A DNA stretch of 38,741 bases, taken from positions 334,068 through 372,808 of the forward strand of contig NZ_LT962469.1 in NCBI RefSeq assembly GCF_900215725.1. Reading direction: 5' to 3'. Made by a program: the position numbers and the translations under genes. This DNA is from Ezakiella peruensis. Its GTDB lineage: Bacteria > Bacillota > Clostridia > Tissierellales > Peptoniphilaceae. Below the pieces are notes generated by a model, which ran no database searches, was not told the origin of the DNA, and saw only the letters and a list, made by a program, of their open reading frames with translations. Shown here piece after piece: positions 221-30,893 of the stretch (position 1 is its first letter; each line of letters starts with the position of its first letter).

Positions 221-360
221 TCGGCTGCGAGGGTTCGATGCCCCGCGGTCGAAGATTATATGCGAAGAATTTATAATGGCACAATGTTTATACAGGTATA
301 AAAAATATTCAGAACGAATGTAGGGGCTACTTTATGTAGCCCGAAAAGTCCCGCCCAAAA
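221..360 (+). repeat. Composite intergenic repeat, copy A (with hairpin copy 1)
   Basis: This stretch matches 29288-29428. Both carry GATGCCCCGCGGTCGAAG followed by an A+T-rich spacer, a CAATGTTTATA block, TTCAGAACG, and then the small hairpin and its tail. The hairpin is GGGCTAC (324-330), loop TTTAT (331-335), GTAGCCC (336-342), preceded by GTAG and followed by GAAAAGTCCCGCCCAAAA. The copies are diverged but colinear over about 140 nt. Confidence 0.75.
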
Positions 361-363
361 GAC

Positions 364-426
364 CTAAAGGAAAAATTTGGTCCACATAAAGTGGACCCTA
401 CACGCTTCGCTGGATTTTTCCTTTAG
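364..426 (-). terminator. Nested inverted repeat with hairpin copy 2; possible murE terminator
   Basis: An inverted copy of the dispersed hairpin (GGTCCAC 379-385, ATAAA 386-390, GTGGACC 391-397 on the plus strand) sits inside a perfect 13-bp outer inverted repeat, CTAAAGGAAAAAT (364-376) with ATTTTTCCTTTAG (414-426). Read on the minus strand, the inner hairpin is followed by AAATTTTTCC. The element lies just past the murE stop and could end its transcript. Confidence 0.55.
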
Positions 427-432
427 AAATAT

Positions 433-1842
433 CTATTTGTGTGTTCGTATATAATCCTCTACGGTCCTCCTATCCGAATAAGGAACCTTCTCTCCCTCAA
501 TCAACTGAAAATCTTCGTCACCTTTGCCGGCGAGGACGATTACATCGCCTGGTTTGGAATCTTTTAGCATGGTCTCGACTGCTGTTTTTCTGTCGGCGAT
601 TGTGTGGGTCTTGATGGTTGAGTGCTTGGCCATTTCACTTAAGATTTTTTCTGGGTCTTCAAAATCGGGATTGTCCGATGTTATATAAATTTCATCGGCG
701 TATTTGTTGGCGGCTTCGGGAATTTCGTGCCTGCGTTCATAGGTCCGTCCTCCCACTGATCCAACTGCTATTAAAATCCTGTTCGGATTCCATGATTTGA
801 TTTCGGCTAAAAGCGATTCGATGGATAATTTATTGTGGGCGTAGTCTATTACGACCTTGCGACCATCGTAGTCCAATACTTCCATGCGGCCAGGAATTTT
901 TAAATCTCCTGCCAGGCCCGCCAGCTTGTCAAAAGAAAATCCAATTTCATTTAAGGTTGCCAGGGCAAGTGCAAGGTTCATCCTGTTGTAAGAACCGTGG
1001 AGGTTGGTTGCAATATGTTTGCCGTTTAAGTCAAAGCCGTCTTCGCTTTCGTTTGTGATTACGAAATCAGCCTCAGACCTGCCTACGCTCACGTGGGGAT
1101 TTTTTAGGCCATCAATCATAAATTCATAATTTTCGTCGTCCTTATTTAAAATGGTTTTTTTGGCTAATAATAAAATATTTTTCTTCCACTTCCTGTACTC
1201 TTCAAAATTTTCGTGTTCCAGCGGCCCAATGTGGTCTGGTGATAGGTTGGTAAAAATATTTGCCATAAATCTGGTGCCAAAAACCCGTGACTGCTTCATG
1301 GCCTGGCTGGAAACTTCAATCACCATGTAGTGAACACCAGCGTCTACGGCTTCGCGCATGGCCTTTTGCAGGGTAAAGGGATCTGGAGTGGTATTATTGG
1401 TTTTAATATGTTTGTCTCCGTAAAAAATCCCGCTCGTGCCGATGACTCCGCATTTGAAACCGTATTTTTCTATAATTTCCTTGATAATAAAAGCCACTGA
1501 GGTCTTGCCCTTGGTCCCTGTAACTCCAATTACCCGAAGGGTCTTGGATGGGTGGCCAAAGAAAGTCGAGGAGACCAGGCCCAGGGTTTTTCTGGAATTT
1601 TCCACCACAAAAACGACCGCGTCCTTTGGCAAAGATACTTCTCTCTCAACTATAAAGGCACGAGCTCCATTGTTATAGGCTTCCATCAAATATTTTTCTT
1701 CGTGGGTGTTCACCCGAGTTCCCTTGATGGCGACAAAGAGAGTGTGGTCGTCGCAATTCTTTGTGTTGGTCTCAATCTTTTTTATATCAAAATCATAATT
1801 CTCATCTATATTTAATCTACTAAAAATTTTACTTAAGCGCAT
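433..1842 (-). CDS. murE: UDP-MurNAc-tripeptide synthetase (MurE-type Mur ligase)
   Basis: Cytoplasmic ATP-dependent ligase that adds the third amino acid to UDP-MurNAc-L-Ala-D-Glu during peptidoglycan synthesis. The 469 residues have the Mur ligase layout: an N-terminal nucleotide-binding domain, the ATP loop GVTGTKGKTS at 106-115, the TTPDP block at 151-155, IEVSSQ near 175-180, SPDH at 201-204 with a Lys near 220 at the place of the usual carbamylated lysine, and a C-terminal domain from about 320. The specificity motif is DNPD (390-393). Diaminopimelate-adding enzymes have DNPR, so Lys or Orn is the more likely substrate; this is inference. The start is supported by AAGGAG upstream and by a good promoter. 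It is transcribed alone, divergently from the aldolase gene. Confidence 0.9.
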   Translation of the reverse strand: MRLSKIFSRLNIDENYDFDIKKIETNTKNCDDHTLFVAIKGTRVNTHEEKYLMEAYNNGARAFIVEREVSLPKDAVVFVVENSRKTLGLVSSTFFGHPSKTLRVIGVTGTKGKTSVAFIIKEIIEKYGFKCGVIGTSGIFYGDKHIKTNNTTPDPFTLQKAMREAVDAGVHYMVIEVSSQAMKQSRVFGTRFMANIFTNLSPDHIGPLEHENFEEYRKWKKNILLLAKKTILNKDDENYEFMIDGLKNPHVSVGRSEADFVITNESEDGFDLNGKHIATNLHGSYNRMNLALALATLNEIGFSFDKLAGLAGDLKIPGRMEVLDYDGRKVVIDYAHNKLSIESLLAEIKSWNPNRILIAVGSVGGRTYERRHEIPEAANKYADEIYITSDNPDFEDPEKILSEMAKHSTIKTHTIADRKTAVETMLKDSKPGDVIVLAGKGDEDFQLIEGEKVPYSDRRTVEDYIRTHK

Positions 1843-1869
1843 AGTCTACTCCTTTTATATACTAGGCTT

Positions 1870-1898
1870 ATTTTACTATATCCAGGCTCAATTTGCAA
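1870..1898 (-). promoter_or_regulatory. murE promoter
   Basis: Read on the minus strand: TTGCAA, a 17-bp spacer, then TAAAAT, about 30 nt before the murE ATG. The -35 hexamer happens to be the same TTGCAA palindrome that is clustered near 14256-14400. Confidence 0.6.
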
Positions 1899-1921
1899 TT
1901 GATGACCAGCTTTTCCTTATA

Positions 1922-1951
1922 TTGGATAAAATTAGACATATATGGTATAAT
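1922..1951 (+). promoter_or_regulatory. Aldolase promoter with extended -10
   Basis: TTGGAT (1922-1927), an 18-bp spacer and TATAAT (1946-1951) preceded by TGG, which makes an extended -10. GGAGGT at 1968-1973 sits five bases before the ATG at 1979. The perfect -10 and ribosome binding site suggest strong constitutive expression. Confidence 0.75.
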
Positions 1952-1978
1952 TAATACATAAATTATTGGAGGTAATCT

Positions 1979-2863
1979 ATGAACAAAGAAATGTTAAAAA
2001 TAATGAAGGAAGACAAGGGATTTATTGCAGCCTTAGACCAAAGTGGTGGGTCAACACCAAAGGCCCTACTAAACTACGGTATCGACAAGGATGCCTATGG
2101 TAATGATGAAGAAATGTTTAGCATTGTCCATCAAATGAGGACACGCATTATTAAATCACCATCATTCACAGGTGAAAAGATTATCGGCGCTATTTTATTT
2201 GAAGTAACCATGGATTCCAAGATCGATGACAAGTATACAGGAGACTTTTTATGGGAAGAAAAGAAAATCGTTCCATTTTTAAAAGTTGACCTCGGTCTAG
2301 CTGACGAAAAAGACGGGGTTAGACTTATGAAGGACATCACAGACTTGGATGAAAAGATTGCCCGTGCCAAGGAAAGAAATATCTTTGGTACCAAGATGAG
2401 ATCTGTTATAAATGAGCTCAATGAAGAAGGCATCAAGGAAATTGTTAGACAACAATTTGAATACGCCAAAAGAATTGCAGATGGCGGATTAGTTCCAATA
2501 GTTGAACCTGAAATTACCATCTCCATGGATAAAAAAGCTGAAGCTGAAGATCTTTTAAAGGCAGCCTTAGTCGAAGAATTAAAAAATTGGGGCGACCAAC
2601 CACTTATGTTTAAGCTTACCCTACCAGAAAAGGCTAACTTATATGAATGCCTCTATGACAATCCTGCAGTAATCAGAGTTGTTGCCCTAAGTGGCGGCTA
2701 CTCACGTGAAGAATCCAACAAGAGACTTGCCGAAAACCATGGCGTAGTCGCATCTTTCTCACGCGCACTCACAGAAGGCCTCAAGGCACAAATGGGCGAA
2801 TTTGAATTCGACAAACTATTAGAAGAATCAGTAGATAGCATCTACCAAGCTTCATGTAAATAA
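1979..2863 (+). CDS. fda: Fructose-bisphosphate aldolase, class I
   Basis: Schiff-base aldolase that splits fructose 1,6-bisphosphate into dihydroxyacetone phosphate and glyceraldehyde 3-phosphate, or runs in reverse for gluconeogenesis. The 294 residues are the usual length for the short bacterial class I family typified by Staphylococcus. Visible marks are AALDQSGGSTPKAL at 17-30, IVEPEI near 174-179, the Schiff-base lysine context LMFKLTLPEK with Lys212, and ALSGGYSREES near the C-terminus. In an amino-acid fermenter the gluconeogenic direction, from pyruvate made by the glutamate operon, is a reasonable inference. No clear terminator was seen in 2864-2943. Confidence 0.93.
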   Translation: MNKEMLKIMKEDKGFIAALDQSGGSTPKALLNYGIDKDAYGNDEEMFSIVHQMRTRIIKSPSFTGEKIIGAILFEVTMDSKIDDKYTGDFLWEEKKIVPFLKVDLGLADEKDGVRLMKDITDLDEKIARAKERNIFGTKMRSVINELNEEGIKEIVRQQFEYAKRIADGGLVPIVEPEITISMDKKAEAEDLLKAALVEELKNWGDQPLMFKLTLPEKANLYECLYDNPAVIRVVALSGGYSREESNKRLAENHGVVASFSRALTEGLKAQMGEFEFDKLLEESVDSIYQASCK

Positions 2864-2943
2864 GATTAGATAAGGGCTCGCGAATTTTTGTTCTCAACAG
2901 ATGCTAGATGGTTGTGGATGCCAGTATTTTGAGGTGAAAACGA

Positions 2944-3180
2944 ATGGAAAATAAATTATATTTAATGATTGTTATATTCTTTGGAATAGCAATCAATATA
3001 GTATTCGCAAATGATTATTTCCAATTAGGGACCATTATAATATTTTGGTTTTCAGTATCAATGATTAGTGATTATATAGATGAACAGAATAAACTTCTTA
3101 AAGAGATAATAAAGAATCAAGAACTAATGCTAGATAATAAGAACAAAGAAGACGAAAAAAATGAAGAGCCTGAGGACTAA
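2944..3180 (+). CDS. Small two-helix membrane protein, unknown function
   Basis: 78 residues: two hydrophobic stretches (about 5-22 and 27-43) joined by a short loop, then a highly charged cytoplasm-type tail (about 44-78) rich in Lys, Glu and Asn, probably helical. The start has GAGGTG upstream at good spacing. The gene ends inside a perfect palindrome shared with the convergent regulator gene, and the last four bases overlap that gene. Base composition matches the A+T-rich regulator/transporter cassette more than the aldolase before it. The fold resembles toxin-like or accessory membrane peptides only in a general way; no family is recognised. Confidence 0.65.
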   Translation: MENKLYLMIVIFFGIAINIVFANDYFQLGTIIIFWFSVSMISDYIDEQNKLLKEIIKNQELMLDNKNKEDEKNEEPED

Positions 3181-3194
3181 TTCTCAGGCTCTTC
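3163..3194. terminator. Bidirectional terminator covering both stop codons
   Basis: A perfect 12-bp stem, GAAGAGCCTGAG (3163-3174) with CTCAGGCTCTTC (3183-3194), and an 8-nt loop that holds the TAA of the upstream gene and the TAG of the convergent regulator. On the minus strand a T-rich run follows at once, so termination should be better for the regulator. On the plus strand the T run is weak. The stem codes for EEPE in both proteins. Confidence 0.8.
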
Positions 3195-4499
3195 GCTTGT
3201 ATTGATTTTTCCGTATAATATAAAATCTAGAAATTCTCCTATCTTATCCTTATTTAAATTCATGTAGTTGAATGAAAAAATAGTTTCGTCTTTATCAATT
3301 TGAAAGAATTGTGGATATATGTTGAATGGGAATAGAGATAAATTTTGCTTAATATATTTTATTTTGTCGTTATGAATCCTTATTGATAGGTAGAAACCTG
3401 AGCTGGTACAATGGAAATCTAGTTGTCTTTTTTTTGCCTCAATTAATATTTTATTCCTTAAACTAATTAAAAATTTCCACAGCTTTTCTGTTTTTTTATA
3501 ATACAGTCTGTCTTTAAAACAATTGATAACAAAATTTTCTGTTAGCGATGAAATTTCAGTTTTAAAATTCTTTGCCATAAAACCTTTGGGCATTATTAAA
3601 AACGCAAATTTTATAGATATTGGGAAAACTCCAGACATATCCCCAAGCAAAAATGTTCTATAATCGTTAAACATGAATTGTTGTTTTTCGAATACAAAGT
3701 CTTTTCTATATAAATTTTCAACTATAAAAATATTGCTCTCATTACAAAAGCTTCCAAGCTCTTCTTTACGTTTTTTTGAATAGGATGTTCCAGTAGGGAA
3801 TTGGTCGAAACTTTCAATATATAAAATAGAGGACTTTGGTGGGATTTTATCTACTATAACGCCCTCATCATCTAGCGGCAGATATTTTATATTATATTTA
3901 TTAGCATTAAAAATGCTGGATTTTAAGTTTGTCCTAGGCTCTTCTAAGAAGATGCTTTTTAAGTTATATTCTGACATTAAATAATCTATAATATGATTTT
4001 TTGAGGAAGAGACAAGTACTTGATCGGGGTGAATTTTCAAACCATACAATTTTAATAAATACTCAGCAATGATCTCTCGCAATCTTGGATTACCAATTCC
4101 AGAATTTTGATGAAAAAGAATATTTGCATTAGAATTATTTAATTCCTTGAATCCAGCATAAATTAATTCATCTATATTTTTCTTGAAAAAAGTATTTTTA
4201 TGAAAATTTCTTATCATAGGTATGATTGTATTGCTTGCTTTATTGTTAATGTGACTATTGTCGTTAATATTAATAACATATCTACCAGTTTTACTATTTA
4301 CATAAAAACCTTTGCCTTTTCGTGAAATAATATAACCTTCTATTGATAATTTATCATATGCAACATCAACATAATATTTTTTTACATTATAAAACAATGC
4401 TGTATGTCTAATAGAGGGAAGTCTATCCCCAATCATGTACTTATTATTTTTGATATCACTAACTATATCATCATAAATTTTTTTAGAAAACTCATTCAT
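3177..4499 (-). CDS. MocR/GntR-type regulator with degenerate aminotransferase domain
   Basis: A 440-residue fusion: an N-terminal GntR winged helix (about 1-68, with GDRLPSIRHTA and the wing RKGKGFYV) and a fold-type I aminotransferase-like domain (about 100-440). The family hallmark QFPTG is kept at 233-237. The PLP lysine is not: the block that reads G-T-F-S-K in GabR-type proteins reads GDMSG at 286-290, with no gap over the 19 residues to the conserved Pro. The EDDYD block reads VENLYR at about 260-265, so the pyridine-contacting Asp is also gone. A PLP-free ligand sensor is inferred. A start 27 codons upstream (4580) is open, but GGTGAT stands before the ATG at 4497-4499 and a promoter lies within the longer reading. 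It probably controls the divergent ABC genes. Confidence 0.82.
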   Translation of the reverse strand: MNEFSKKIYDDIVSDIKNNKYMIGDRLPSIRHTALFYNVKKYYVDVAYDKLSIEGYIISRKGKGFYVNSKTGRYVININDNSHINNKASNTIIPMIRNFHKNTFFKKNIDELIYAGFKELNNSNANILFHQNSGIGNPRLREIIAEYLLKLYGLKIHPDQVLVSSSKNHIIDYLMSEYNLKSIFLEEPRTNLKSSIFNANKYNIKYLPLDDEGVIVDKIPPKSSILYIESFDQFPTGTSYSKKRKEELGSFCNESNIFIVENLYRKDFVFEKQQFMFNDYRTFLLGDMSGVFPISIKFAFLIMPKGFMAKNFKTEISSLTENFVINCFKDRLYYKKTEKLWKFLISLRNKILIEAKKRQLDFHCTSSGFYLSIRIHNDKIKYIKQNLSLFPFNIYPQFFQIDKDETIFSFNYMNLNKDKIGEFLDFILYGKINTSEEPEN

Positions 4500-4515
4500 A
4501 ACATCACCAAATATG

Positions 4516-4544
4516 ATTTTATCAATTAAATAAAAATAAATCAA
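4516..4544 (-). promoter_or_regulatory. Promoter of the MocR-type regulator
   Basis: On the minus strand: TTGATT (4544-4539), a 17-bp spacer and TAAAAT (4521-4516). It is placed about 17 nt before the internal ATG at 4499, which supports that start over the longer one. Confidence 0.65.
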
Positions 4545-4547
4545 CTG

Positions 4548-4602
4548 TTTGTTAAAAAACCTGACAACTGTCTGTAACAAAACGATTAATTTGTGGTATA
4601 AT
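4548..4602 (+). promoter_or_regulatory. ABC operon promoter with overlapping operator-like inverted repeat
   Basis: The -10 is TATAAT (4597-4602) with TGG before it, an extended -10. The -35 is weak (TGTAAC, 4573-4578), which fits a promoter that needs an activator. An inverted repeat TTTGTTA (4548-4554) and TAACAAA (4575-4581) covers the -35 and faces the regulator promoter. Position between the divergent genes makes it the best candidate binding site for the MocR-type protein. Confidence 0.55.
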
Positions 4603-4691
4603 AAAAGTGTAAAGAAAACTCGAGTAAATTTAGGTAATGAATAACTGTGTTCCTGAAAAATATTTTTTTGATGATTATGTGAGGATGATTT

Positions 4692-6260
4692 ATGAAGAAG
4701 AGACTAGAAATATTTAAAGATAATGACCTTTTAAGCAAAAATGACTTATTTAAAATGTGTTCATTATACGTGGTTGGTTTTGCAGTTTCTTTTGTTCCGC
4801 CCTATATTAACAAGATGATGATTGAAAATATGGAAACTAACCATATCGGATTTAATGTTTTTTGCGGCTTATTAGCTTTAACATTCGTGTCTGTAATGAT
4901 TAATTATATGACAAACTTTTATATTATGGGCAAATATACGAAAAAAACAAGAAGAAATCTCTTGTATAAAATTTTTGAAAAATCTCAAAAAATGCCTAGC
5001 TATGTATATAATACATATGGAAACAATTCGGTTCTTGGTTTATATATGTTTGATAGTATAAATGTATCGGATGCAATTGTGAAAAGAAGATTTGCAATAA
5101 AGACATTGATATTTCAGTCAGTTATAACTTTGTTAATACTTGCATATATTAATTATATTTTGACAATATATGTTTTAGTATCAGTTCCTATTATGCTAAT
5201 CGCGATTTCTCTTAATAATATGAAGCTAAATGCAATCCAAGAAAAAATGATTACTAATAGAAATGTGCTTATAGGCGAGACACAAAATTTTATTATGCAT
5301 AAAAAGGATATGTATTTATATGATAGAGACGAATATTTTGAAAGCAAATTGAATCTAAAGTTGCAAAATTTTTTAGATAGTCAAAAAAGCTTTCAGTTTT
5401 TAACTCTATTTTTAAAGAGAATACCTGTTTTAATAACCATATTATTGCCTGTAATACTTCTTTTCTTAGGAGCTTTTTATGTAAAGGAAAGTCAAATGAC
5501 ATTAGGTACATTATTCTTTTATATAGGTATTGCAGGTCAATTTTATACTCCGTTGTCTAATATATTTTTATATATAACAGATATAAAAAGTTATAGGGTT
5601 AATGTGGAGAAAATGGAAAATTTTTTATATAATAAAATTGATAATAAAGCATATTTAGGATTGTATTCAGATGCTGAAGATGAAATTTATGTTAATGACT
5701 GTAATATTTATAATGAAAAAGAAGATTTACTCTATAAGGCAAATCTTAGAATTAAAGAGTCTGGATTTTATATTATAAAGGGTCCTAATGGATCTGGCAA
5801 ATCTACTCTTTTTAATATAATTGCTGGGATATACTCTCCCGATCAAATTAAAGGCGATTGTATTATAAACAAAAAATATTTAGACAATATGTCTATCCTA
5901 AAATATCCGCTCTTTTTTATAGAAGGTAGTGTTGAAGAAAATATGTTTTCTGATAATGTGAAAAACATATTTCATATCAATATGGAGAAAGAAATAAAAT
6001 TAAATCCCCTAAATCTATCCAGTGGTGAGGCACAGAAAGTTGCTTTAACCAGAATTATTTCTGAAGATAGAGATATGATTTTACTTGACGAACCTATATC
6101 TAATCTTGAAGTCGATGCAATAGCTGTACTAAAAGATTATATTTATTCGAATAAAGATAACAAAGTAATTATTGCAATAATGCATGATGATAGTTTTGAT
6201 GACATTGCGGACAATATTTTTACAATTAAAGAAGGAGAAATGGAGGGGCAAAATGTTTAA
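4692..6260 (+). CDS. ABC exporter half-transporter A (membrane plus ATPase domain)
   Basis: 522 residues: an N-terminal membrane domain with about six helices (roughly 20-310) and a C-terminal nucleotide-binding domain (about 330-522). Walker A is GPNGSGKST (364-372), the signature is LSSGEAQ (442-448), Walker B is MILLDEP and the switch His is in AIMHDD. The ATPase core is compact: Walker A and signature are about 78 residues apart, against roughly 100 in MsbA-type exporters. The Q-loop glutamine appears to be replaced (ILKYPLFF). The next gene is a paralogue that overlaps by 8 nt, so the pair probably forms a heterodimer. The substrate is unknown; a peptide or drug is possible. Confidence 0.88.
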   Translation: MKKRLEIFKDNDLLSKNDLFKMCSLYVVGFAVSFVPPYINKMMIENMETNHIGFNVFCGLLALTFVSVMINYMTNFYIMGKYTKKTRRNLLYKIFEKSQKMPSYVYNTYGNNSVLGLYMFDSINVSDAIVKRRFAIKTLIFQSVITLLILAYINYILTIYVLVSVPIMLIAISLNNMKLNAIQEKMITNRNVLIGETQNFIMHKKDMYLYDRDEYFESKLNLKLQNFLDSQKSFQFLTLFLKRIPVLITILLPVILLFLGAFYVKESQMTLGTLFFYIGIAGQFYTPLSNIFLYITDIKSYRVNVEKMENFLYNKIDNKAYLGLYSDAEDEIYVNDCNIYNEKEDLLYKANLRIKESGFYIIKGPNGSGKSTLFNIIAGIYSPDQIKGDCIINKKYLDNMSILKYPLFFIEGSVEENMFSDNVKNIFHINMEKEIKLNPLNLSSGEAQKVALTRIISEDRDMILLDEPISNLEVDAIAVLKDYIYSNKDNKVIIAIMHDDSFDDIADNIFTIKEGEMEGQNV

Positions 6261-7815
6261 ATTGTTTAAGCACAAGCTAATAAAATTCACGGAGATTTTA
6301 ATTGCAACAGTTGGATATATAATAGCTCTGCTATCCTTCTTATCTGTTTTTTATATTAACAAATTAATTGCAGATTATGCAAAGGGAATTGCTGAGATTA
6401 CTAATATACAGTTTTATTTTATAGTTGTCTTTTTGATTTTTTTGCAATTGGGACTAGTATTCTATTTTGCGAATTATTATTTTCAAAAAAGCACTTTAAA
6501 TATTGGTGGCAGGATATTTAATTCTATATTTAATAAAATATTAAAACTCTCTCCTTCCGATTATGATAAATATGATAAGTCTAGTATTTTAAATATAATT
6601 TTTTCGGATACATTTTCAACCGCAAATATGACACTTGCGGCAATATCTGGGGTTAGTGGAAATACTATATTTGTGATCTTAGCTGTTTATATTTTGTACA
6701 ATATTAACAGAGAATTACTGATCGTATCATTAATAATGCTACCTATATATTTTATCACTTCTGTGGTAAGTTCTATGGTGATAAAAAGAAAGAATAAGAT
6801 ATTGTTAGAAAAAAACGATTCTATGATTAGTGTTATAAAAAATTACTCAGAAAATATTCCGATAATAAAAATGCTGGATAAAAAAGAAAATATTGAAGAA
6901 GGTTATAAATTGCATGTAAATGAATTTTATGTAGCTGATAAGAAAAAGTTTTTTTATGAAAACTTATTTAGCTCCATATATTCAATTTTTGGAGTAATCA
7001 CACAGATTATTATACTATTTTTAGGATCGAATTTCGTTTCCGAGGGTTTGATGACGATAGGAGACCTAATTATGTACTCTGGTATTTGCGGATTCCTTTT
7101 TGAGCCTATTTCAAATATTTCCAAGATCTTGCAAACTATAAAGAGTGGTAAACCTAATTTTGATAGAGTAAATATTATTCTTTCGCATAGTTCAAAAAAC
7201 ATTTATGATTATAAAAAATCATTTAAAGATATGGATTATGGAATCGAGGCATTAGGCATTGTAAAAGATAATTTGGGAAATAATCTATATGATATTGATA
7301 TTAAGTTGCCATCAACGGGTTTCTATATATTGCAAGGACCAAATGGTAGCGGAAAGTCTACAATATTTAATATTATATCTGGGATATATGATATTAATCA
7401 GCTTGATGGATCAATATATATTAACGATGAATTCAAAGACAACATTTCTATTTTAAATTATCCTTTATTTTTGATAGATGATACAGTTGGTGAAAATATT
7501 TCACTAGGTAATTTAAAGGAAAATTCTCTTTATGAAATGCAGATTGATAAAAAAGTTACTTCAAATCCTCCAAATGTTTCTAGTGGAGAAGCACAAAAAA
7601 TAGCGCTAAATAGAGTTTTAAATTTAGATAGAAAGCTTATTTTAATTGATGAGCCATCAACTAATCTTGAAACTAAAGCGATTAGTTTATTGAAGAAATA
7701 TATTGAAAAAGAAAAAAATAATAAATTGATTGTAGTAATCACTCATGATGAAAATTATAATGAATTAGCTGATGGCATAATGGAGATTAAGGATAAATCT
7801 ATTTATTACAGATAG
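6253..7815 (+). CDS. ABC exporter half-transporter B (paralogue of A)
   Basis: 520 residues from the ATG at 6253, chosen because GGAGGGG lies just before it; the frame is open 69 nt further upstream inside the first transporter gene. It has about six membrane helices, then an ATPase domain with Walker A GPNGSGKST (362-370), signature VSSGEAQ (442-448), Walker B LILIDEP and the switch His in VITHDE. Motif spacing is almost identical to that of its neighbour, which indicates tandem duplication. The Q-loop position reads ILNYPLFL, again without Gln. The 8-nt overlap implies translational coupling and equal amounts of both halves. Export is inferred from the fused membrane and ATPase layout. Confidence 0.88.
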   Translation: MFKLFKHKLIKFTEILIATVGYIIALLSFLSVFYINKLIADYAKGIAEITNIQFYFIVVFLIFLQLGLVFYFANYYFQKSTLNIGGRIFNSIFNKILKLSPSDYDKYDKSSILNIIFSDTFSTANMTLAAISGVSGNTIFVILAVYILYNINRELLIVSLIMLPIYFITSVVSSMVIKRKNKILLEKNDSMISVIKNYSENIPIIKMLDKKENIEEGYKLHVNEFYVADKKKFFYENLFSSIYSIFGVITQIIILFLGSNFVSEGLMTIGDLIMYSGICGFLFEPISNISKILQTIKSGKPNFDRVNIILSHSSKNIYDYKKSFKDMDYGIEALGIVKDNLGNNLYDIDIKLPSTGFYILQGPNGSGKSTIFNIISGIYDINQLDGSIYINDEFKDNISILNYPLFLIDDTVGENISLGNLKENSLYEMQIDKKVTSNPPNVSSGEAQKIALNRVLNLDRKLILIDEPSTNLETKAISLLKKYIEKEKNNKLIVVITHDENYNELADGIMEIKDKSIYYR

Positions 7816-7908
7816 TAAGTGTAGATATATTATTTATTCTAGCTTCGATACTGGGTAATAAAATTAAAATAAATTAAATAAAAAAATGGCTTTGTGAAAT
7901 GTGTATTG

Positions 7909-7940
7909 CCCCCTTAAATCCGGACACGGAAATAAGGGGG
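7909..7940. other. GC-rich hairpin between the ABC operon and the small peptide gene
   Basis: CCCCCTTA (7909-7916) pairs with TAAGGGGG (7933-7940), and the inside adds CCG (7920-7922) with CGG (7927-7929). No T run follows on either strand, so it is not a standard terminator. It lies 11 nt before the -35 of the next promoter. It could be a protein-binding site or a relic end of a mobile element. Confidence 0.55.
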
Positions 7941-7951
7941 TACCTTTCGCC

Positions 7952-7980: not shown

Positions 7981-7999
7981 ATATTCATGAGGTGATTGT

Positions 8000-8101: not shown

Positions 8102-8125
8102 GGATTTTAAATACTGATTTTGCCT

Positions 8126-8146: not shown

Positions 8147-8159
8147 ATTTGTCAAAATT

Positions 8160-24514: not shown

Positions 24515-24517
24515 TTT

Positions 24518-24546
24518 ATAGAGCCATTAACCTGGCTCTATTTTTT
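24518..24546 (+). terminator. Terminator of the glutamate-fermentation operon
   Basis: ATAGAGCCA (24518-24526), loop TTAACC, TGGCTCTAT (24533-24541), then a T run. A perfect 9-bp stem; it closes the 10-kb transcript. Confidence 0.9.
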
Positions 24547-24572
24547 AAAATAATTTTCGAAGGGAGACTATT

Positions 24573-25829
24573 ATGAGAAAAATTTACCAAGTCGAAGACA
24601 AGGTACCAGCAAAACTCTTGGTGCCTCTATCTATTCAACATACCTTTGCCATGTTTGGGGCATCAGTCCTCGTGCCAATAATCTTTGGCATCAACCCCGG
24701 CATCGTTTTACTTATGAATGGAATCGGAACCCTATTATTTATTTGGATTACCCAGGGCAAGGCTCCAGCTTATTTGGGATCCAGCTTTGCCTTTTTGGCA
24801 CCAGGCACAGCCATCATAGCCCAACAGGGTTTGCAGTACGCCCAAGGCGCCTTTGTAGTCGTGGGAATTATTGGTATGATCATTGCCTTTATAATTAAAA
24901 AATACGGGACCAAATGGATTGACGTCGTCCTGCCACCAGCCGCTATGGGTGCAGTAGTTGCCCTTATCGGTTTTGAACTTGTCGGCCTAACCATCAGGGG
25001 CGGGGCAATCGGCGCAGAAATTTTAACCGAATCAGTAAATGGCAAACACATAGCTGTATTTGCAGTAACACTTTTAACAGCCGTCTTTGGATCAGTTTGC
25101 TTTAAAAAATTCTGGGCAACCATTCCAATTTTGATCGCAATTATCGTGGGCTACATTACAGCAGTCGCTCTGGGCATGGTTGACTTCACACCAGTAGCCG
25201 AAGCTAAATTCTTTACCCTACCTGAATTTCATTTGGCAAAATTTTCTATGGAAGCAGTTATCACAATGCTACCTGTAATTTTGGTTATACTTTCTGAGCA
25301 CATCTCCCACCAAGTTGTAACATCCAATATTGTTGGCAAAGATTTAATTAAAGATCCAGGCCTACACAGGTCAATCTTTGCAGACAACTTTTCAACTGCA
25401 CTTTCAGGACTAATCGGTGGTGTACCAACCACAACTTACGGAGAAAACATCGGCGTTATGGCAATCACTGGCGTATATTCAGTTCAAGTTATTGCAGGAG
25501 CTGCAGTTATTTCAATTATAATGGCCTTTATCGGACCACTCTCTGCCTTCATCTCCACAATTCCTGGCGATGTAATCGGCGGCGTAACATTCCTGCTTTA
25601 CGGTATGATTGGATCGAGCGGACTTAGACTTTTGGTCGACCAAAAAGTTGATTTTTCAAATGCAAAAAATTTAATTCTAACATCAGTAATCTTCACAACC
25701 GGCCTAAGTGGACTTACCATAAAACTGGGAGCCATCAACCTATCAGGTATGGTTCTTGCATCTGTAGTTGCAGTTGTCTTGTCACTTATCTTCCACTTGC
25801 TGGATAAAGTCGGTCTGATCAATAAATAG
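24573..25829 (+). CDS. uraA: Uracil permease (NCS2 family)
   Basis: 418 residues with about 14 hydrophobic segments; a proton-coupled nucleobase importer in the cytoplasmic membrane. The signature GGVPTTTYGENIGVMAIT (about 286-303), with its substrate-binding Glu, matches the UraA/PyrP branch that carries uracil more closely than the xanthine branch. The N-terminal QHTFAMFGASVLVPIIFG is also typical. It starts 27 nt past the operon terminator with GAAGGGAG before the ATG. No clear promoter was found in that short gap, so read-through or a promoter inside the preceding gene is possible. It is first of a three-gene run. Confidence 0.92.
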   Translation: MRKIYQVEDKVPAKLLVPLSIQHTFAMFGASVLVPIIFGINPGIVLLMNGIGTLLFIWITQGKAPAYLGSSFAFLAPGTAIIAQQGLQYAQGAFVVVGIIGMIIAFIIKKYGTKWIDVVLPPAAMGAVVALIGFELVGLTIRGGAIGAEILTESVNGKHIAVFAVTLLTAVFGSVCFKKFWATIPILIAIIVGYITAVALGMVDFTPVAEAKFFTLPEFHLAKFSMEAVITMLPVILVILSEHISHQVVTSNIVGKDLIKDPGLHRSIFADNFSTALSGLIGGVPTTTYGENIGVMAITGVYSVQVIAGAAVISIIMAFIGPLSAFISTIPGDVIGGVTFLLYGMIGSSGLRLLVDQKVDFSNAKNLILTSVIFTTGLSGLTIKLGAINLSGMVLASVVAVVLSLIFHLLDKVGLINK

Positions 25830-25836
25830 GTGGCCC

Positions 25837-26481
25837 ATGGATTTGGTAAATCTATATACCAGGCAGCACGAAAATTCTTTACATGAATTAAATTCCAAGG
25901 GAGTCATGACTAACAAGCAGCTCTATGTTGGTCTTCACATGGGGGATATTGCGCCCTTTTTTTCCCGCAAGTACAATAAATTTGTCGAAATGGCAGAAAA
26001 AATTGTGCCCCGGCCAAACGGGATCGCCTATCCTATCTGGTGCTCGGTCTCCAAGGAAAACTGCCTCAAGCCTGTGGAAAAATCTGTAATTTATTGCTTA
26101 GAAGTTCCCAGCGACCAGGTCATTTATTTTTCATCAATCAAATGGGACTATGTATTAAATAATTTATATATAGGCAAGGACCAGGCTGATGAAGAGGCCT
26201 TTGAAAAGAAAATCAAAGCCCTGGGTTGCAAGGACAAATTCAATTTTATTGACGGCCGCTACAAGGGCATGTACCCAGATATCGAAAGGGAAATTGTCGA
26301 TTCATGGGAGAGGATTTTTGATATAGACGAATGGGACTGCTTCAAAGTCCAGGCCAACCTCTGGCAAATAAAAAAAGAATGGGTCAAGCATATAATCTAC
26401 CCAGGCGATGACTTTTTTGCCATCACCGCTGATATGACAGACGATATGGAAAAACACATTCAAGCTTACAAGGAGAAATAA
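25837..26481 (+). CDS. DUF3841-like protein
   Basis: 214 residues, soluble. The pattern of an N-terminal YTRQHENSL, a central IPYP-like AYPIWCSV block, SVIYCLEVPSDQVIYFSSIKWDYVLNN and a C-terminal WQIKKEWVKHIIYP agrees with the DUF3841 family, whose role is unknown. It begins seven bases after uraA and ends directly against the lipoprotein gene, so the three are one transcription unit. There is no link to uracil use in the sequence itself. Confidence 0.65.
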   Translation: MDLVNLYTRQHENSLHELNSKGVMTNKQLYVGLHMGDIAPFFSRKYNKFVEMAEKIVPRPNGIAYPIWCSVSKENCLKPVEKSVIYCLEVPSDQVIYFSSIKWDYVLNNLYIGKDQADEEAFEKKIKALGCKDKFNFIDGRYKGMYPDIEREIVDSWERIFDIDEWDCFKVQANLWQIKKEWVKHIIYPGDDFFAITADMTDDMEKHIQAYKEK

Positions 26482-27099
26482 ATGAAAAAAGTTTTAGCGA
26501 TAATGCTCGCCTGTGCACTATTGTTCACGGCTTGCAATACAAATAAAATGGCAGACGAATTTAAACGCCTGCCAAAGGATGAGAGATTAGTCTTAGAATT
26601 ATCAACCGAAGATCAATTGAAATTGGTCTCTGAAATTATAAAAGAAGTTGAAAGGGTTGCCACAGCTTCCAAAGAATCAGAATATTATAAAGAAGGCAAG
26701 GTTGATGACAGAGTCATTGAAATGGTTGACGGTGCCCTCCAAGGGGTCAAAGAAGACAAGCAAAATCCTAAAAAAATTTTAGATGGCTTAACTGATGGCA
26801 TGAATCCAAAAGCCACAGTCCAAGACTTCAAAGATACCTTTACCATTTCCAACCACGGAGCTTATGATACCAGAAAGTTCTCAGACCTTTCTTTTGAAGA
26901 GCTCAATGCCTATTATAATGCGGTCATGAATACATTGATAGAAAAAATTACTGAAGACCAAGAGGAAATTGATAAACTAGACAAAACCTTCAGACAAGAG
27001 CTAACCAATAAAGACTACAAAGACCCCCCAGTCTGTGAAGCCGTAGTGAAAATAGCTGAAAAACTCCAGGCTCAGGCTGCAAATTTAGAAGAAAAATAG
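26482..27099 (+). CDS. Predicted lipoprotein, unknown function
   Basis: 205 residues with a lipoprotein signal: two Lys, a hydrophobic core and the lipobox LFTAC with Cys18. The mature part is charged and mostly helical, with no cysteine before CEAVVK near the end. AAGGAG lies within the end of the preceding gene. The C-terminal helices (EKITEDQEEIDKLDKTFRQEL) could form a coiled coil. No family is recognised; location outside the membrane on a lipid anchor is the only firm inference. Confidence 0.75.
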   Translation: MKKVLAIMLACALLFTACNTNKMADEFKRLPKDERLVLELSTEDQLKLVSEIIKEVERVATASKESEYYKEGKVDDRVIEMVDGALQGVKEDKQNPKKILDGLTDGMNPKATVQDFKDTFTISNHGAYDTRKFSDLSFEELNAYYNAVMNTLIEKITEDQEEIDKLDKTFRQELTNKDYKDPPVCEAVVKIAEKLQAQAANLEEK

Positions 27100-27104
27100 A
27101 AAGC

Positions 27105-27141
27105 AAATAGGTGTAGGGTGGAAACCCAGCACCTATTTTTT
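27105..27141 (+). terminator. Terminator of the uraA operon
   Basis: AAATAGGTG (27105-27113) pairs with CACCTATTT (27130-27138), with an inner GGGT/ACCC hairpin (27116-27119 and 27124-27127), and T follows. Confidence 0.85.
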
Positions 27142-27283
27142 GTGGAACAAAACATTCACTCGCTCGGCAATGGATGTGTCGTAACGGCGATCCTGAAATG
27201 GTCGCCACTCGTTCGCCTATGCGGACGAGATTTCTCCTACGGATATTGATAAGAATGTTTGTAGGGTCCACTTTATGTGGACC
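27142..27283 (+). repeat. Intergenic stretch with hairpin copy 3
   Basis: No gene. It holds two small hairpins (GGCGA/TCGCC near 27186-27205, and CTCGT 27208-27212 with ACGAG 27225-27229). Then comes the sequence ATTGATAAGAA that also precedes copies 7 and 9, and the dispersed hairpin GGTCCAC (27265-27271), TTTAT, GTGGACC (27277-27283) with the tail GAAAAGTCCCGCCCGAAA. Confidence 0.75.
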
Positions 27284-27368
27284 GAAAAGTCCCGCCCGAA
27301 ATGAAATGTTTTAAAAAAATTGGCTTGTGTAAATCGTCTTTATCTTTTATATCGCTCTGCGGCTGTAG

Positions 27369-27387
27369 GGGCGACTTTATGTCGCCC
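27369..27387 (+). repeat. Dispersed hairpin copy 4
   Basis: GGGCGAC (27369-27375), TTTAT, GTCGCCC (27381-27387). The flanks from about 27338 to 27412 (ATATCGCTCTGCGGCTGTAG before, CCCGCCCGAAATAAAATATT after) nearly repeat those of copy 6 at 29165. Confidence 0.85.
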
Positions 27388-27425
27388 AAGATTCCCGCCC
27401 GAAATAAAATATTTAAATACGCATG

Positions 27426-27449
27426 AAAAAAGAGACCTTTCGGTCTCTT
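27426..27449 (-). terminator. Terminator of glyS
   Basis: AAGAGACC (27430-27437), TTTC, GGTCTCTT (27442-27449). On the minus strand the stem is followed by a T run. It lies 175 nt past the glyS stop. Confidence 0.75.
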
Positions 27450-27487
27450 GAATTATTATATTTGAATGTGGATTTATGATTCTAATA

Positions 27488-27612
27488 CATATATTTCGTA
27501 GGGAATTTCGATGAGATTCGAAGGGAAAAATTAAATCGGTCATGTAGCGGCCGATTTATTTCGGCCAAACCGATTTAATTTCCTAAGAAAGTCGCAAATT
27601 TAACACGAAATA
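27488..27612 (-). repeat. 3'-flanking element of glyS, with nested hairpin copy 5
   Basis: This stretch shares TTTCGTAGGGAATTTCGATG near the terminator side and a TCGCAAATTTAACACGAAAT block near the gene side with 29558-29750, behind the 2-hydroxyacid dehydrogenase gene. Inside is hairpin copy 5, GGCCGA (27549-27554), TTTATT, TCGGCC (27561-27566), enclosed by a perfect 12-bp inverted repeat, AATTAAATCGGT (27529-27540) with ACCGATTTAATT (27569-27580). Confidence 0.65.
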
Positions 27613-27624
27613 CATTCTCATGAA

Positions 27625-29010
27625 TTAAAATTGCATCCTCTCTTCCACATAATCCCTAACTTCGGAAATCTTGATTCTGATTTGCTCCATAGTATCCCTA
27701 TCTCTTAGGGTGACTGTATCGTCTTCCAGGGTATCGAAGTCAATGGTTAGGCAGAATGGCGTACCGATTTCATCTTCACGGCGGTAGCGTTTGCCAATTG
27801 ATCCCCTTTCGTCGTAGTCGCAGTCAAAGTATTTGACCATTTCCTTGTAGACTTCTTCAGCTTTGTCGGATAATTTCTTGGTCAGCGGTAAAATTGCCAA
27901 CTTATAAGGGGCAATACGTGGGTGGAATTTTAAAACAGTCCTTGTCGTACCGTCTTCCAATTCTTCCTCCCTGTAAGCGTCTGCCAAAAATGCAAGTGTA
28001 ACGCGGTCTGCACCCAATGATGGCTCAACTACATAAGGAATATATTTTTCGTTTGTTTGCGGATCCAGATAATTCATATCCTGGCCAGAGCATTCCATAT
28101 GCTTGGACAAATCGTAGTCAGTCCTGTTGGCAATACCCCAGAGCTCGCCCCAACCAAAGGGGAAGAGGTATTCAATATCTGTGGTTGCCTTTGAATAGAA
28201 GGACAGCTCTTCAGGATCGTGGTCGCGTAGGCGCATCATATCTTCTCTCATACCCAGAGAAGTCAACCAATCCTTGCAGAAGGACCTCCAGTAATCAAAC
28301 CACTCATCATCAGTGCCTGGCTTTACAAAAAATTCCAATTCCATTTGCTCGAATTCACGAGTTCTAAAGGTAAAGTTGCCAGGTGTAATCTCATTTCTAA
28401 AAGACTTACCAATCTGTGCAATACCAAAAGGCACTTGCTTTCTGGAAGTCCTTTGGGCACTCTTGAAGTTTACAAAAATACCTTGGGCAGTTTCCGGTCT
28501 TAAATAAATTTCAGATGCAGACTCCTCGGTAACCCCTTGGAAGGTCTTAAACATCAAATTAAATTGCCTAATCTCTGTGTAATCCAGCTTACCGCACTTT
28601 GGACAGACGATATTGTGGTCTTTGATATAAGTTTCTAGCTCTTCGTTGGTCCAGCCATCTGGATTAATGCCGTCAATATTATTTTCGTGAGCATAATCTT
28701 CAATTAACTTGTCCGCCCTAAAACGAGCCTTACAAGCCTTGCAGTCTATAAGCGGGTCAGAGAAAGATCCCAAGTGGCCGCTGGCTTTCCAAACTTCTGG
28801 ATTCATCAAAATCGCCGCATCAATGCCAACATTGAGTTGACTTTCGCGTACAAACTTTTGCCACCAAGCATTTTTTATATTATTTTTTAAAAGCACTCCC
28901 ACCGGGCCATAGTCCCATGTATTGCTAAGGCCGCCGTAAAGCTCGCTGCCTGCAAAGACAAAGCCCCTATTCTTGGCAAGAGATACAAGTGTGTCCATAG
29001 ATTTTAACAT
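27625..29010 (-). CDS. glyS: Glycyl-tRNA synthetase (homodimeric type)
   Basis: Charges tRNA-Gly with glycine. The 461 residues match the single-chain alpha-2 class II enzyme, as in Staphylococcus, not the two-subunit alpha/beta type. Motif 2 contains [25 protein letters not shown]; motif 3 contains [13 protein letters not shown]. Paired cysteines at 90 and 93 (CKAC) and 136 and 139 (CPKC) can bind zinc. AAGGAGGT precedes the ATG. The transcript leader is only about 25 nt, so no T-box riboswitch is present, unusual for a Bacillota aminoacyl-tRNA synthetase but not rare. Confidence 0.95.
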
Positions 29011-29035
29011 AATACCTCCTTATACATATATATTT

Positions 29036-29064
29036 ATAATACCACAGTAAAGGCCATACTTCAA
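29036..29064 (-). promoter_or_regulatory. glyS promoter
   Basis: Minus strand: TTGAAG (29064-29059), 17 bp, TATTAT (29041-29036) with TGG before it (extended -10). The start codon follows about 25 nt later. Confidence 0.65.
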
Positions 29065-29164
29065 GCACAAAGTGTTGGGGGGATTTTGTTTGATTAAATT
29101 GTTTTGTGCAAATGATTGGATTATATGAATCGTATTGATTTCTTATATCGCTTTGCGGCTGTAG

Positions 29165-29183
29165 GGGCGACTTTATGTCGCCC
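29165..29183 (+). repeat. Dispersed hairpin copy 6
   Basis: GGGCGAC (29165-29171), TTTAT, GTCGCCC (29177-29183), preceded by CGGCTGTAG and followed by CAAGAGTCCCGCCCAAAA. Its context repeats that of copy 4. Confidence 0.85.
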
Positions 29184-29266
29184 AAGAGTCCCGCCCAAAA
29201 TAAAATATTTTAAAAACATCTATAGATATAAATAACAACCTCAAAATTGATAAGAACGTAGGTAGA

Positions 29267-29284
29267 GTCCGATTTATTTCGGAC
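29267..29284 (+). repeat. Dispersed hairpin copy 7
   Basis: GTCCGA (29267-29272), TTTATT, TCGGAC (29279-29284), preceded by GATAAGAACGTAGGTAGA. The upstream ACAACCTCAA block is shared with copy 9. The stem sequence is unlike those of the GGTCCAC and GGGCGAC types, but the loop is kept. Confidence 0.75.
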
Positions 29285-29287
29285 ATA

Positions 29288-29428
29288 TCGGCCGCGCGGG
29301 CTCGATGCCCCGCGGTCGAAGATTATTGACGAATAATTTATGAGGGCTCAATGTTTATAATGATATTAAAATTTATTCAGAACGTAAGTAGGGTCCACTT
29401 TATGTGGACCGAAAAGTCCCGCCCAAAA
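29288..29428 (+). repeat. Composite intergenic repeat, copy B (with hairpin copy 8)
   Basis: Colinear with 221-360. It begins with a GC-rich imperfect hairpin around CTCGATGCCCCGCGGTCGAA, then an A+T-rich spacer with CAATGTTTATA, then TTCAGAACG. Hairpin copy 8 follows: GGTCCAC (29392-29398), TTTAT, GTGGACC (29404-29410), and the tail GAAAAGTCCCGCCCAAAA. Confidence 0.75.
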
Positions 29429-29456
29429 AATTTTTCCTATCCGCCCATTTACACAC

Positions 29457-29480
29457 AAAAAAGAGACCTTTCGGCCTCTT
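29457..29480 (-). terminator. Terminator of the 2-hydroxyacid dehydrogenase gene
   Basis: AAGAGACC (29461-29468), TTTC, GGCCTCTT (29473-29480); on the minus strand the one mismatch becomes a G-U pair and a T run follows. Almost the same as the glyS terminator. It lies 270 nt beyond the stop. Confidence 0.7.
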
Positions 29481-29557
29481 AAATATCATTATACATAATT
29501 TTCTGTTTTCCCACCGATATATTTTCTACCACATAATTTGCTAAGGAATCTCTACCA

Positions 29558-29750
29558 CATAAATTTCGTAGGAAAATTTGATGAATTTTCGTGGTCCAAT
29601 TACTCGTAACATTCAATATACATAATTTGTTAGAAAATTTTGATGAGATTTGGATTGGACGAATTTTTTGCCGACGCAGGTGTGCTGAGTGCACATCGAG
29701 GAGGGAAATAAATTCAGGCCGATTCAAAGATCGCAAAATTAGCAACAAAT
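29558..29750 (-). repeat. 3'-flanking element of the 2-hydroxyacid dehydrogenase gene
   Basis: No gene is supported here. Two imperfect copies of a motif like ATAAATTTCGTAGG plus AAATTTGATGA occur at about 29558-29591 and 29620-29652. A TCGCAAAATTAGCAACAAAT block ends against the stop codon, as in the glyS flank. The two flanks are clearly related but differ in length. Confidence 0.55.
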
Positions 29751-30710
29751 TTAATTGACCTTATTGATGGCTTCGCCACCACTCAACACAAGAATAATAT
29801 TATTCGCTGCAATCATCCCCATCTCCTCTCTCGCCTCTATGGTTGCATTGCCCAGGTGGGGGGAGAGGACTACATTGTCCAGCTTGAGTAATCCCTCTGT
29901 GACGGCCGGTTCAAATTCATAAACGTCCAGGCCTGCACCTGCGATTCTCTTTTCTGCCAAGGCTTTGACCAAGGCTTCTTCATCTATAATCGGACCCCGT
30001 GATGTATTGACCAAATAAGCTGTCTTTTTCATTTTCTTAAAAACATCCCCGTTAAATAAATGGTGGAGTTCTTTTGAATATGATGAGTTAAGCGAAATCA
30101 CATCTGACTTTTCAATTAAATCATCAAAAGAAACATAGGTCGCACCTAATTCTTTTTCTTTTTTCTCATCCAGCCTTGTTCTCGAATGATAAATCACATT
30201 CATCTCAAAGGCCTTGGCCCTCTTGCACACTGCTTGGCCAATCCGACCCATACCAAAAATTCCCAGGGTCTTGCCAGCGACCGATGGCCCTAAACCATAG
30301 GTCGGCTTCCATCCTTTAAAATTTCCTTGGCGCAAAGAATCTTCGCCCCGAGTAATCCCACGCATGACGTCTATGATTAGACCAATGGCAATCTCCGCAG
30401 TCGATTGAGTAGAAAACTTTGCCGGAGCATTGGTCACCACAATATTTTTCTCAGCCGCAGCCTTGATATCAATATTATCAAAACCCGCCCCAAAATTTGC
30501 AATGATTTCTAAATTGTCGCAAGTCTCTATAATCTCCTTGTCGATTTTTTCTGATAATGGAACCAGTAGACCATGAGCATCCTTGGCCCGCTTGATCAAA
30601 TCATCCCTGTCCAAAAAATCCAAGCTATCATTATAATCAATTTCAAAATCCTTTTTGATTTTCTCCACCACAGGCTCAGGCACCTGCATGGTAATTAAAA
30701 CCTTCTTCAT
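29751..30710 (-). CDS. D-isomer-specific 2-hydroxyacid dehydrogenase
   Basis: 319 residues, NAD(P)-dependent reductase of the D-2-hydroxyacid dehydrogenase family. The nucleotide-binding loop is GIFGMGRIG (150-158), the catalytic Arg is Arg238 in NTSRGP, the acidic partner is in LDVYEFEP (about 265) and the catalytic His is His285 in SPHLGNAT. Candidate reactions are glyoxylate, hydroxypyruvate or 2-oxoglutarate reduction. In a glutamate fermenter the last would give 2-hydroxyglutarate, but nothing in the sequence decides it. It is transcribed alone. Confidence 0.88.
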   Translation of the reverse strand: MKKVLITMQVPEPVVEKIKKDFEIDYNDSLDFLDRDDLIKRAKDAHGLLVPLSEKIDKEIIETCDNLEIIANFGAGFDNIDIKAAAEKNIVVTNAPAKFSTQSTAEIAIGLIIDVMRGITRGEDSLRQGNFKGWKPTYGLGPSVAGKTLGIFGMGRIGQAVCKRAKAFEMNVIYHSRTRLDEKKEKELGATYVSFDDLIEKSDVISLNSSYSKELHHLFNGDVFKKMKKTAYLVNTSRGPIIDEEALVKALAEKRIAGAGLDVYEFEPAVTEGLLKLDNVVLSPHLGNATIEAREEMGMIAANNIILVLSGGEAINKVN

Positions 30711-30831
30711 AAAAACCCTCCTTTATCTATCCACTACATACCCAATATGAATAAAAATAAAATGCAAATACGAAAAATCCTATACGGATCAATACAAGTA
30801 ACAACCTCAATATTGATAAGAACGTTTGTAG

Positions 30832-30893
30832 GGTCGACTTTATGTGGACCGAAAAATGCCGATATTCGTCCCTTGTGGACGTGAGGCATTTTT
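30832..30893 (+). repeat. Dispersed hairpin copy 9 fused to a second hairpin
   Basis: GGTCGAC (30832-30838), TTTAT, GTGGACC (30844-30850), with one mismatch in the stem. The usual tail is replaced by another nested hairpin: AAAAATGCC (30852-30860) with GGCATTTTT (30885-30893), and inside it CGTCC (30867-30871) with GGACG (30877-30881). The T run at the end makes it terminator-like. The rest of 30711-31081 shows only A+T-rich sequence with no gene. Confidence 0.7.

Follow-up and report, generated by a model that had tools for sequence, protein, structure and literature searches.

GTAG-type repetitive extragenic palindromes (REPs) and the REP-associated tyrosine transposases (RAYTs) are, as such, well known. 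In its host sections, the 2013 survey of this super-family by Di Nocera, De Gregorio and Rocco (PMC3733652) names Proteobacteria, Cyanobacteria, Chloroflexi and the PVC group, and its passages on dimers give the pair with GTAG outside as the favoured form in most described GTAG families. GTAG is of importance to the TnpAREP enzymes studied so far; for the Stenotrophomonas and Marinomonas systems, the binding and cleavage passages of PMC8266576 report that certain loop bases are decisive and that stem mismatches do more harm than most changes of stem sequence. In the E. coli enzyme TnpAREP, W94, Q95, E100, H101 and R104 are treated under GTAG recognition in the corresponding part of PMC6006769, where the role of W94 is called unclear and two TnpAREP subclasses have D for E100. 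Here we describe a family of short hairpins found in 38,741 nucleotides of Ezakiella peruensis, Bacillota (the window, C1:334068-372808 of a genome of 1,673,080 bases in 5 contigs, hereafter G000), together with the one RAYT gene of this genome. We propose that the hairpins are GTAG-type REP elements, i.e., short non-autonomous DNA repeats that are read as folded single strands by this RAYT. We assign this reading a probability of about 0.88.

Hairpin family, stem covariation and transposase gene

The original prediction, made from the letters of the window, had listed nine hairpins with a GTAG foot, an almost constant loop and covarying stems. All nine are present where it had placed them, and a pattern search of the window returned these nine and no extra copy. 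The foot was found in 9/9, with the correction that the copies at 27549 and 29267 have one unpaired base between foot and stem (GTAG-C and GTAG-A, respectively); both have a 6-bp stem and the loop TTTATT. The core is 23 bases long, either GTAG with a 7-bp stem and TTTAT directly on the foot, or GTAG and a 6-bp stem, one spare base apart, with TTTATT. Arms match in all but one copy, as had been claimed, the sole exception being that at 30832 (GGTCGAC/GTGGACC). The shared tail, GTCCCGCCC, stands exactly 3' of the copies at 324, 27265, 29165 and 29392 and with one change at 27369.

Searching the whole genome with GTAGN7TTTATN6C yielded 89 matches, compared with 8 for the reversed pattern. Four of the 89 (C1:286955, C1:392742, C1:685082 and C2:27548) were removed by eye as unpaired. 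The copies that the prediction expected elsewhere in the genome are thus there, 85 hairpins in all, of which 35 pair over 7 bp and 32 over 6 bp by an exact test and 18 have one mismatch. The stricter 7-bp form gave 47 matches against 0 for its reversed control. The family consists of short palindromes with an unpaired 5' GTAG and 0–1 base between foot and stem, it occurs in many copies between genes (89 vs 8 matches; intergenic location was checked for the nine window copies), and it has subfamilies with complementary stem changes. The invariance of foot and loop alone proves little because both belonged to the search pattern. A third form, GTAGNGNCNATCCTTTATGGTNGNC, was found with a different pattern and has 3 copies in G000 and 14 in the sister species (G002). 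The 85 hairpins are unevenly spread: 46 lie in C1:24,000-155,000 and C1:309,000-402,000, and none past C1:402,000 on this contig of 1,001,871 bases.

Covariation was tested on 13 distinct 7-bp and 20 distinct 6-bp cores from the two species, one further form (L045) being excluded. Paired cells made up 92.3% of the 7-bp and 97.5% of the 6-bp cores. The covariation scores, 0.297 and 0.518, compare with shuffled means of 0.101 and 0.189, respectively, and were reached by 0/500 shuffles; covariation as originally claimed is therefore statistically significant. Sliding the partner arm by one column abolished the score in both core types. For the 6-bp cores, two of five measures lay within the shuffles (two-sided-change pairs 73/500, pair types 406/500).

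A search of the genome with PF01797 (E <= 0.001) detected one Y1 transposase gene, at C1:49304-49981 on the minus strand (226 codons), which provides the RAYT-like gene that the prediction had proposed. The sole NCBIfam family matched is the REP-associated tyrosine transposase (NF047646, E=7e-20). Alignment identified the motifs HVH, WQ...DH..R and YIVNNP, so that the HUH motif, the catalytic tyrosine and residues of the GTAG-recognition region are all represented. Their spacing fits W94-Q95, E100-H101 and R104 of E. coli TnpAREP; this is a comparison of spacing, for which the sole alignment is the single match of a PDB sequence search up to E=1, TnpAREP 4er8, and that match is weak (E=0.02). 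The gene is single-copy and does not belong to a multicopy insertion sequence (IS). Six hairpins (<=2 pattern mismatches) lie in the 3.3 kb around it, where 0.47 would be expected by chance; hairpins and RAYT gene are thus linked as in a REPtron. Copy number, covariation and the position of the RAYT among hairpins together support the originally suggested REP/RAYT reading. Beside the RAYT gene, L001:2475-2776 is a tandem array of three REP hairpins spaced 139–140 bp, and G002 has this array too.

We infer by analogy with described TnpAREP/REP pairs that the RAYT acts on the hairpins. It would be a Y1 HUH single-strand nuclease and strand transferase that recognises, on the folded strand, the foot GTAG and the loop TTTA, probably needs a paired stem without needing a particular stem sequence, and would nick beside the folded hairpin and join it elsewhere. 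Such recognition would hold foot and loop fixed and let stems drift as matched pairs, as is seen. Moreover, both arms would change at once if hairpin tips were exchanged in place, whether through the RAYT or through template switching in replication.

Occurrence across genomes and turnover between sister species

We compared the presence of RAYT and hairpins across related genomes. Among six genomes of the genus, two have the RAYT (G000 and G002), with 89 and 68 pattern matches, and the third form GTAGNGNCNATCCTTTATGGTNGNC is confined to these two. The four RAYT-free genomes have 1 to 5 matches, fewer than the 3 to 13 of their reversed controls. In the family (123 genomes), 30 match the RAYT protein, 10 of them by the transposase core and the other 20 by the tail only. 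The 7-bp hairpin form occurs in 4/123 genomes (47, 22, 10 and 1 copies), all among the 10 core carriers, and its reversed control in 0 of the 123. At six of seven further RAYT loci of the family, GTAG hairpins (stem >=6) lie nearby with loops that are mostly their own, L077 again having TTTAT; an eighth carrier (G101, L102) stood outside this comparison.

Beyond the family, we inspected 80 named RAYT loci of many phyla, picked from the matches listed for their protein similarity and nothing else, a set from which the nearest relatives may be absent. A GTAG-footed hairpin (stem >=7) lies within 1.5 kb at 67 of them. Of the 256 tetranucleotides, GTAG had the most hairpins (222; median 4); TAGG, TGTA and CGTA come next and are taken as the same hairpins because they overlap GTAG with a shift of one base. 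Where a locus had at least two GTAG hairpins, one loop occurred with different stems in 22/61 cases, i.e., the rule of the present family also holds at other RAYT loci. The named loci with GTAG hairpins include those of the Bacillota Gemmiger and Fonticella, beyond the phyla given in the host sections of the 2013 survey. At least 12 named loci (L104-L183) have GTAG hairpins within the RAYT coding match, these hairpins often bearing a GTAG at each end, as at L107:2522 and L160:5264.

To follow single sites, 400 kb of G000 (46 hairpins) were aligned with 400 kb of G002 (34 hairpins). Both flanks were recognisable in G002 at 9/46 sites, including 363228, where the left flank scored 26 and was aligned in a separate comparison. 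Four of the nine have an unchanged core (50788, 102230, 363228 and 381907); at C1:102230, one tail module is an indel between the two species. At C1:151189, a single base pair, changed on both arms (C-G vs T-A), is all that distinguishes the cores, next to an identical left flank of 74 bases. C1:50275 likewise has one base pair changed on both arms (A-T vs C-G), plus one loop base. The difference at C1:128600 is on one arm, at a pair that was already mismatched. At C1:102021 the whole core is replaced by a different hairpin between conserved flanks, and C1:63033 has a different short hairpin tip in G002, as judged by eye. Three sites were set aside, i.e., 50509 and 50648 in a tandem array and 50110 with weak flanks and a hairpin of opposite orientation in G002.

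The remaining 34/46 sites have one recognisable flank or none. At 363329 (window 29262), the left flank is exact through GTAG in G002 and then runs into another hairpin (GGCCATCCTTTATGGTGGCC); at C1:381825 it is likewise exact through GTAG before the sequences diverge. At C1:379725, the outer stem and right flank persist in G002 around an inverted inner hairpin of the third form, an apparent inversion at an orthologous site. Sites empty in one species are C1:154417/154509 and window 30832, where G002 is without the hairpin and about 100 bp around it. With two genomes the changes cannot be polarised, and where one flank is itself repeated, copies may have undergone gene conversion. Sister species with common REP sites thus display several modes of stem change: matched pairs, whole hairpins and inverted hairpins.

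To judge by the orthologous sites that differ on both arms or have a swapped hairpin, stems may be renewed as units. Covarying stems may therefore arise by hairpin replacement or arm-to-arm copying besides compensatory mutation. This bears on the original claim that compensatory change means a fold under selection. The covarying stems are real, but the inference of selection was too strong, because orthologous sites show joint arm change and whole-hairpin replacement; selection on the fold is not needed for two-sided change, which copying or replacement can produce.

Replication template switching can make imperfect palindromes perfect. The covariation could hence be purely mutational, produced by such switching without selection or RAYT, an explanation that is compatible with the REP reading. 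The paired changes at C1:151189 and C1:50275 are what it would give, and the outer stems described below vary likewise among copies. It leaves unexplained, however, the fixed foot and loop, the dispersal and the link to the RAYT, and a mismatch is retained in 18/85 stems. As a full account of the covariation we regard it as a serious possibility, with odds somewhat against it.

A host-selected role at the RNA level, i.e., as terminators, mRNA 3' stabilisers or processing sites with an incidental RAYT nearby, appears very unlikely to us. All nine window copies are outside open reading frames (ORFs) of >=130 aa, several of them downstream of genes, single strands of the hairpin stretches have better folds than shuffled sequences (z from -2.1 to -4.7, DNA parameters), and one tail module is terminator-like. 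Yet hairpins are found on either strand, one of them between divergent genes (window 30832), a T-run is absent 3' of most window copies, close relatives without RAYT are also without the hairpin family, and hairpins are missing or swapped at orthologous places. We find it hardly credible that the hairpins are remnants or termini of an IS200/IS605-type insertion sequence, or miniature inverted-repeat transposable elements (MITEs) of another transposon: although the RAYT belongs to the same Y1 superfamily, the genome has a single Y1 gene with hairpins on either side in both orientations and not a multicopy tnpA with subterminal hairpin ends of its own, no one pair of ends is common to the copies, and the ends of the window's IS are of quite another kind.

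Several observations weigh against the REP/RAYT reading. One mismatch is present in 18/85 stems, eight of these being of the single type GGGCGAC/GTGGCCC; perfect pairing is therefore not strictly needed. At 71.3 bits, the RAYT falls short of the curated NF047646 cut-off of 80, which is a naming threshold and not a biological feature. L078, one of the seven further family loci, is without a GTAG hairpin, and so are 13/80 of the named loci within 1.5 kb. The ends of a mobile unit are not sharp, since the empty sites differ by about 100 and about 270 bp of mixed repeats. Finally, neighbouring pairs closer than 300 bp within the fetched stretches (n=23) comprise 5 with GTAG outside, 8 with GTAG inside and 10 in tandem. 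The REPIN, two inverted REPs as one unit, was considered as the general unit and ruled out, as only 5/23 pairs have GTAG outside.

Outer stems, tails and further features of the window

Around the GTAG cores, 34/85 hairpins lie inside a second, perfect outer stem of >=8 bp. When the right flanks were permuted (200 times), such enclosed hairpins numbered 2.9 on average and at most 8. Outer stems vary among copies, some being recurrent and others unique. Left flanks and tails form a few classes, grouped by crude rules of our own, and are combined with different cores. Palindromes surrounding REPs are reported for a few species in the relevant passage of PMC3733652.

In the window, the first copy (320–342, plus strand, foot included here and below) is of the 7-bp type, GTAG and GGGCTAC/TTTAT/GTAGCCC, with the tail GAAAAGTCCCGCCC. 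Next to it on the minus strand stands a nested double hairpin (364–426), with an outer 13-bp stem (364–376 with 414–426), the spacer CCAGCGAAGCGT and the inner GTAG hairpin GGTCCAC/TTTAT/GTGGACC at 379–401. All further elements are on the plus strand. The 7-bp copies at 27261–27283 and 29388–29410 are of type GGTCCAC with the tail GTCCCGCCC; those at 27365–27387, with the tail TTCCCGCCC, and 29161–29183 are of type GGGCGAC, the latter with an identical core at the orthologous site of G002. A second nested double hairpin (27528–27581) has an outer 13-bp stem (27528–27540 with 27569–27581) around the 6-bp GTAG-C hairpin GGCCGA/TTTATT/TCGGCC (27544–27566). DNA folding gives the nested form for both double elements. 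The other 6-bp copy, GTAG-A with GTCCGA/TTTATT/TCGGAC, is at 29262–29284, and the last copy (30828–30850) is the 7-bp type with one mismatched pair, GGTCGAC/GTGGACC.

REP tails hold more hairpin modules, with near-constant loops (TCGAT, CTTGT or TTCAT), variable stems and no GTAG foot. They are found in the tails of many copies and, in the window, as predicted by DNA folding, at 29288–29319 (tail hairpin of the 29262 copy, plus strand, loop TCGAT) and at 30852–30893 (plus strand), a terminator-like hairpin in the tail of the 30832 copy (AAAAATGCC...GGCATTTTT, with a nested hairpin inside).

The G+C content of the window is 37.2%. Some of the nine copies are overlapped by ORFs shorter than 130 aa. 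Scans of the window returned zero Rfam families at threshold and zero tRNAs. Positions 1–217 belong to an IS3-family-like element, which is also present in L030, L044, L047 and G002 and has two ORFs of 207 and 256 aa at L200:12304-13902, the family being judged from sequence. In 5/9 ends (L030, L044, L047 and two in G002), its end abuts the 3' foot of a REP hairpin, and the element may choose REPs as targets.

The antitoxin-like tail and comparison with known systems

The last 50 or so residues of the RAYT are homologous to the C-terminal end of Phd/YefM antitoxins (PF02604). With the antitoxin of L083, this tail shares 56% identity over 52 residues (E=6e-16). It matches proteins in 21 other genomes of the family (E 2.5e-10 to 1e-5), i.e., the 20 tail-only genomes and G122, where the RAYT core is elsewhere. 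Two of these relatives were scanned and are Phd/YefM antitoxins, one above the Pfam cut-off (E=3.5e-9) and one just below. Next after the L083 antitoxin comes an ORF for a ParE-like toxin, whose Pfam match is below the cut-off (E=0.0017). Tail relatives in L082, L090, L100 and L101 are in short frames, and in the ORF lists of L100 and L082 a toxin is not obvious beside them. The Pfam domain SHOCT was also considered for the tail and stayed below its cut-off (15.7 of 27 bits).

By matched ranges, transposase core and tail are joined in one protein in 2/249 genomes of the order. The reading frame is open in both species, with ratios of non-synonymous to synonymous change (dN/dS) of 0.10 for the core and 0.14–0.15 for the tail, the latter from only nine changes. 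At 87 other RAYT loci (80 named, among the matches listed, and 7 of the family), the tail was not found at E <= 0.01, and the genome has no second copy of it up to E=1. At the level of sequence, the fusion of RAYT and antitoxin tail is a fact, and such a piece at the end of a RAYT is unusual.

The C-terminal segment of Phd/YefM antitoxins binds the toxin. The RAYT could hence be a chimaera of two functions, in which the tail still binds ParE/RelE-like toxins such as those of related genomes and protects the host from them; alternatively, the amount of RAYT would be set by toxin binding and by proteolysis of the tail. The REP hairpins would persist alongside the RAYT, and exchange of hairpins in place would renew their stems. 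We consider this reading speculative and rather unlikely. In the ORF list, inspected by eye, no cognate toxin adjoins the RAYT, and the genome has no relative of the one toxin searched for. A genome search with PF05016 (ParE_toxin) gave zero matches; in the control, 8/14 genomes matched. If true, the chimaera would be a concrete reason for keeping a domesticated transposase and its REP population. The host benefit of RAYTs and REPs is called an open question in the field in the part of PMC8049555 concerned with it, and the antitoxin segment suggests a benefit that is testable.

Literature on REP/RAYT in Firmicutes or Clostridia and on REPs of Anaerococcus, Peptoniphilus and Ezakiella contained no report of the present family among the matches listed, and that on RAYT with antitoxin and on transposase-antitoxin fusions no such fusion, with the same scope. 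The words Firmicutes and Clostridi- are absent from PMC3733652 and PMC2817692; in the text of PMC6006769 that was searched, Firmicutes is absent and Clostridi- occurs twice, once for IS200-type genes. Against a claim of first report stands a table in PMC12306157, in which REPs, defined in a general way, are counted for three Bacillota genomes.

The present system is a GTAG-type REP/RAYT system. As in the super-family described in the family sections of PMC3733652, there is an unpaired 5' GTAG, a short stem, subfamilies with complementary changes, a mostly intergenic location and RAYT neighbours, and some families there also lie within larger palindromes; in contrast, the present host belongs to the Bacillota, the loop is TTTAT(T) and the outer stems differ among copies. 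The TnpAREP/REP pairs of E. coli, Stenotrophomonas and Marinomonas, in the passages of PMC8266576 noted above, likewise have GTAG at the foot, and TTTA agrees with the loop that the Marinomonas system requires (T, T, any, A). Unlike these pairs, the present family, described from sequence, has a stem of 6–7 bp and a spacer of 0 or 1 base.

Among the TnpAREP subclasses, as tabulated in PMC6006769, DHVH and D for E100 fit subclass 2.7, YIxNNP fits subclass 2.4 and WQ fits both. Both have REPs and are listed there for various or few other phyla, unnamed. The antitoxin-like tail sets the present RAYT apart from either, and its placement between them, from a motif comparison, is provisional. A C-terminal extension is described in the same source for subclass 2.1, of the helix-turn-helix/DnaA-like kind. 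Its account of some E. coli strains in which the REPtron locus is replaced by toxin-antitoxin genes concerns a different kind of link from the fusion found here. Phd/YefM antitoxins with ParE/RelE-like toxins resemble the RAYT tail in their C-terminal part; their Phd DNA-binding part is absent from the RAYT, and a relative of the toxin was not found in the genome. The antitoxin-like RAYT tail, the variable outer stems and the turnover between two species take the present system beyond a routine member of the GTAG-type REP/RAYT systems.

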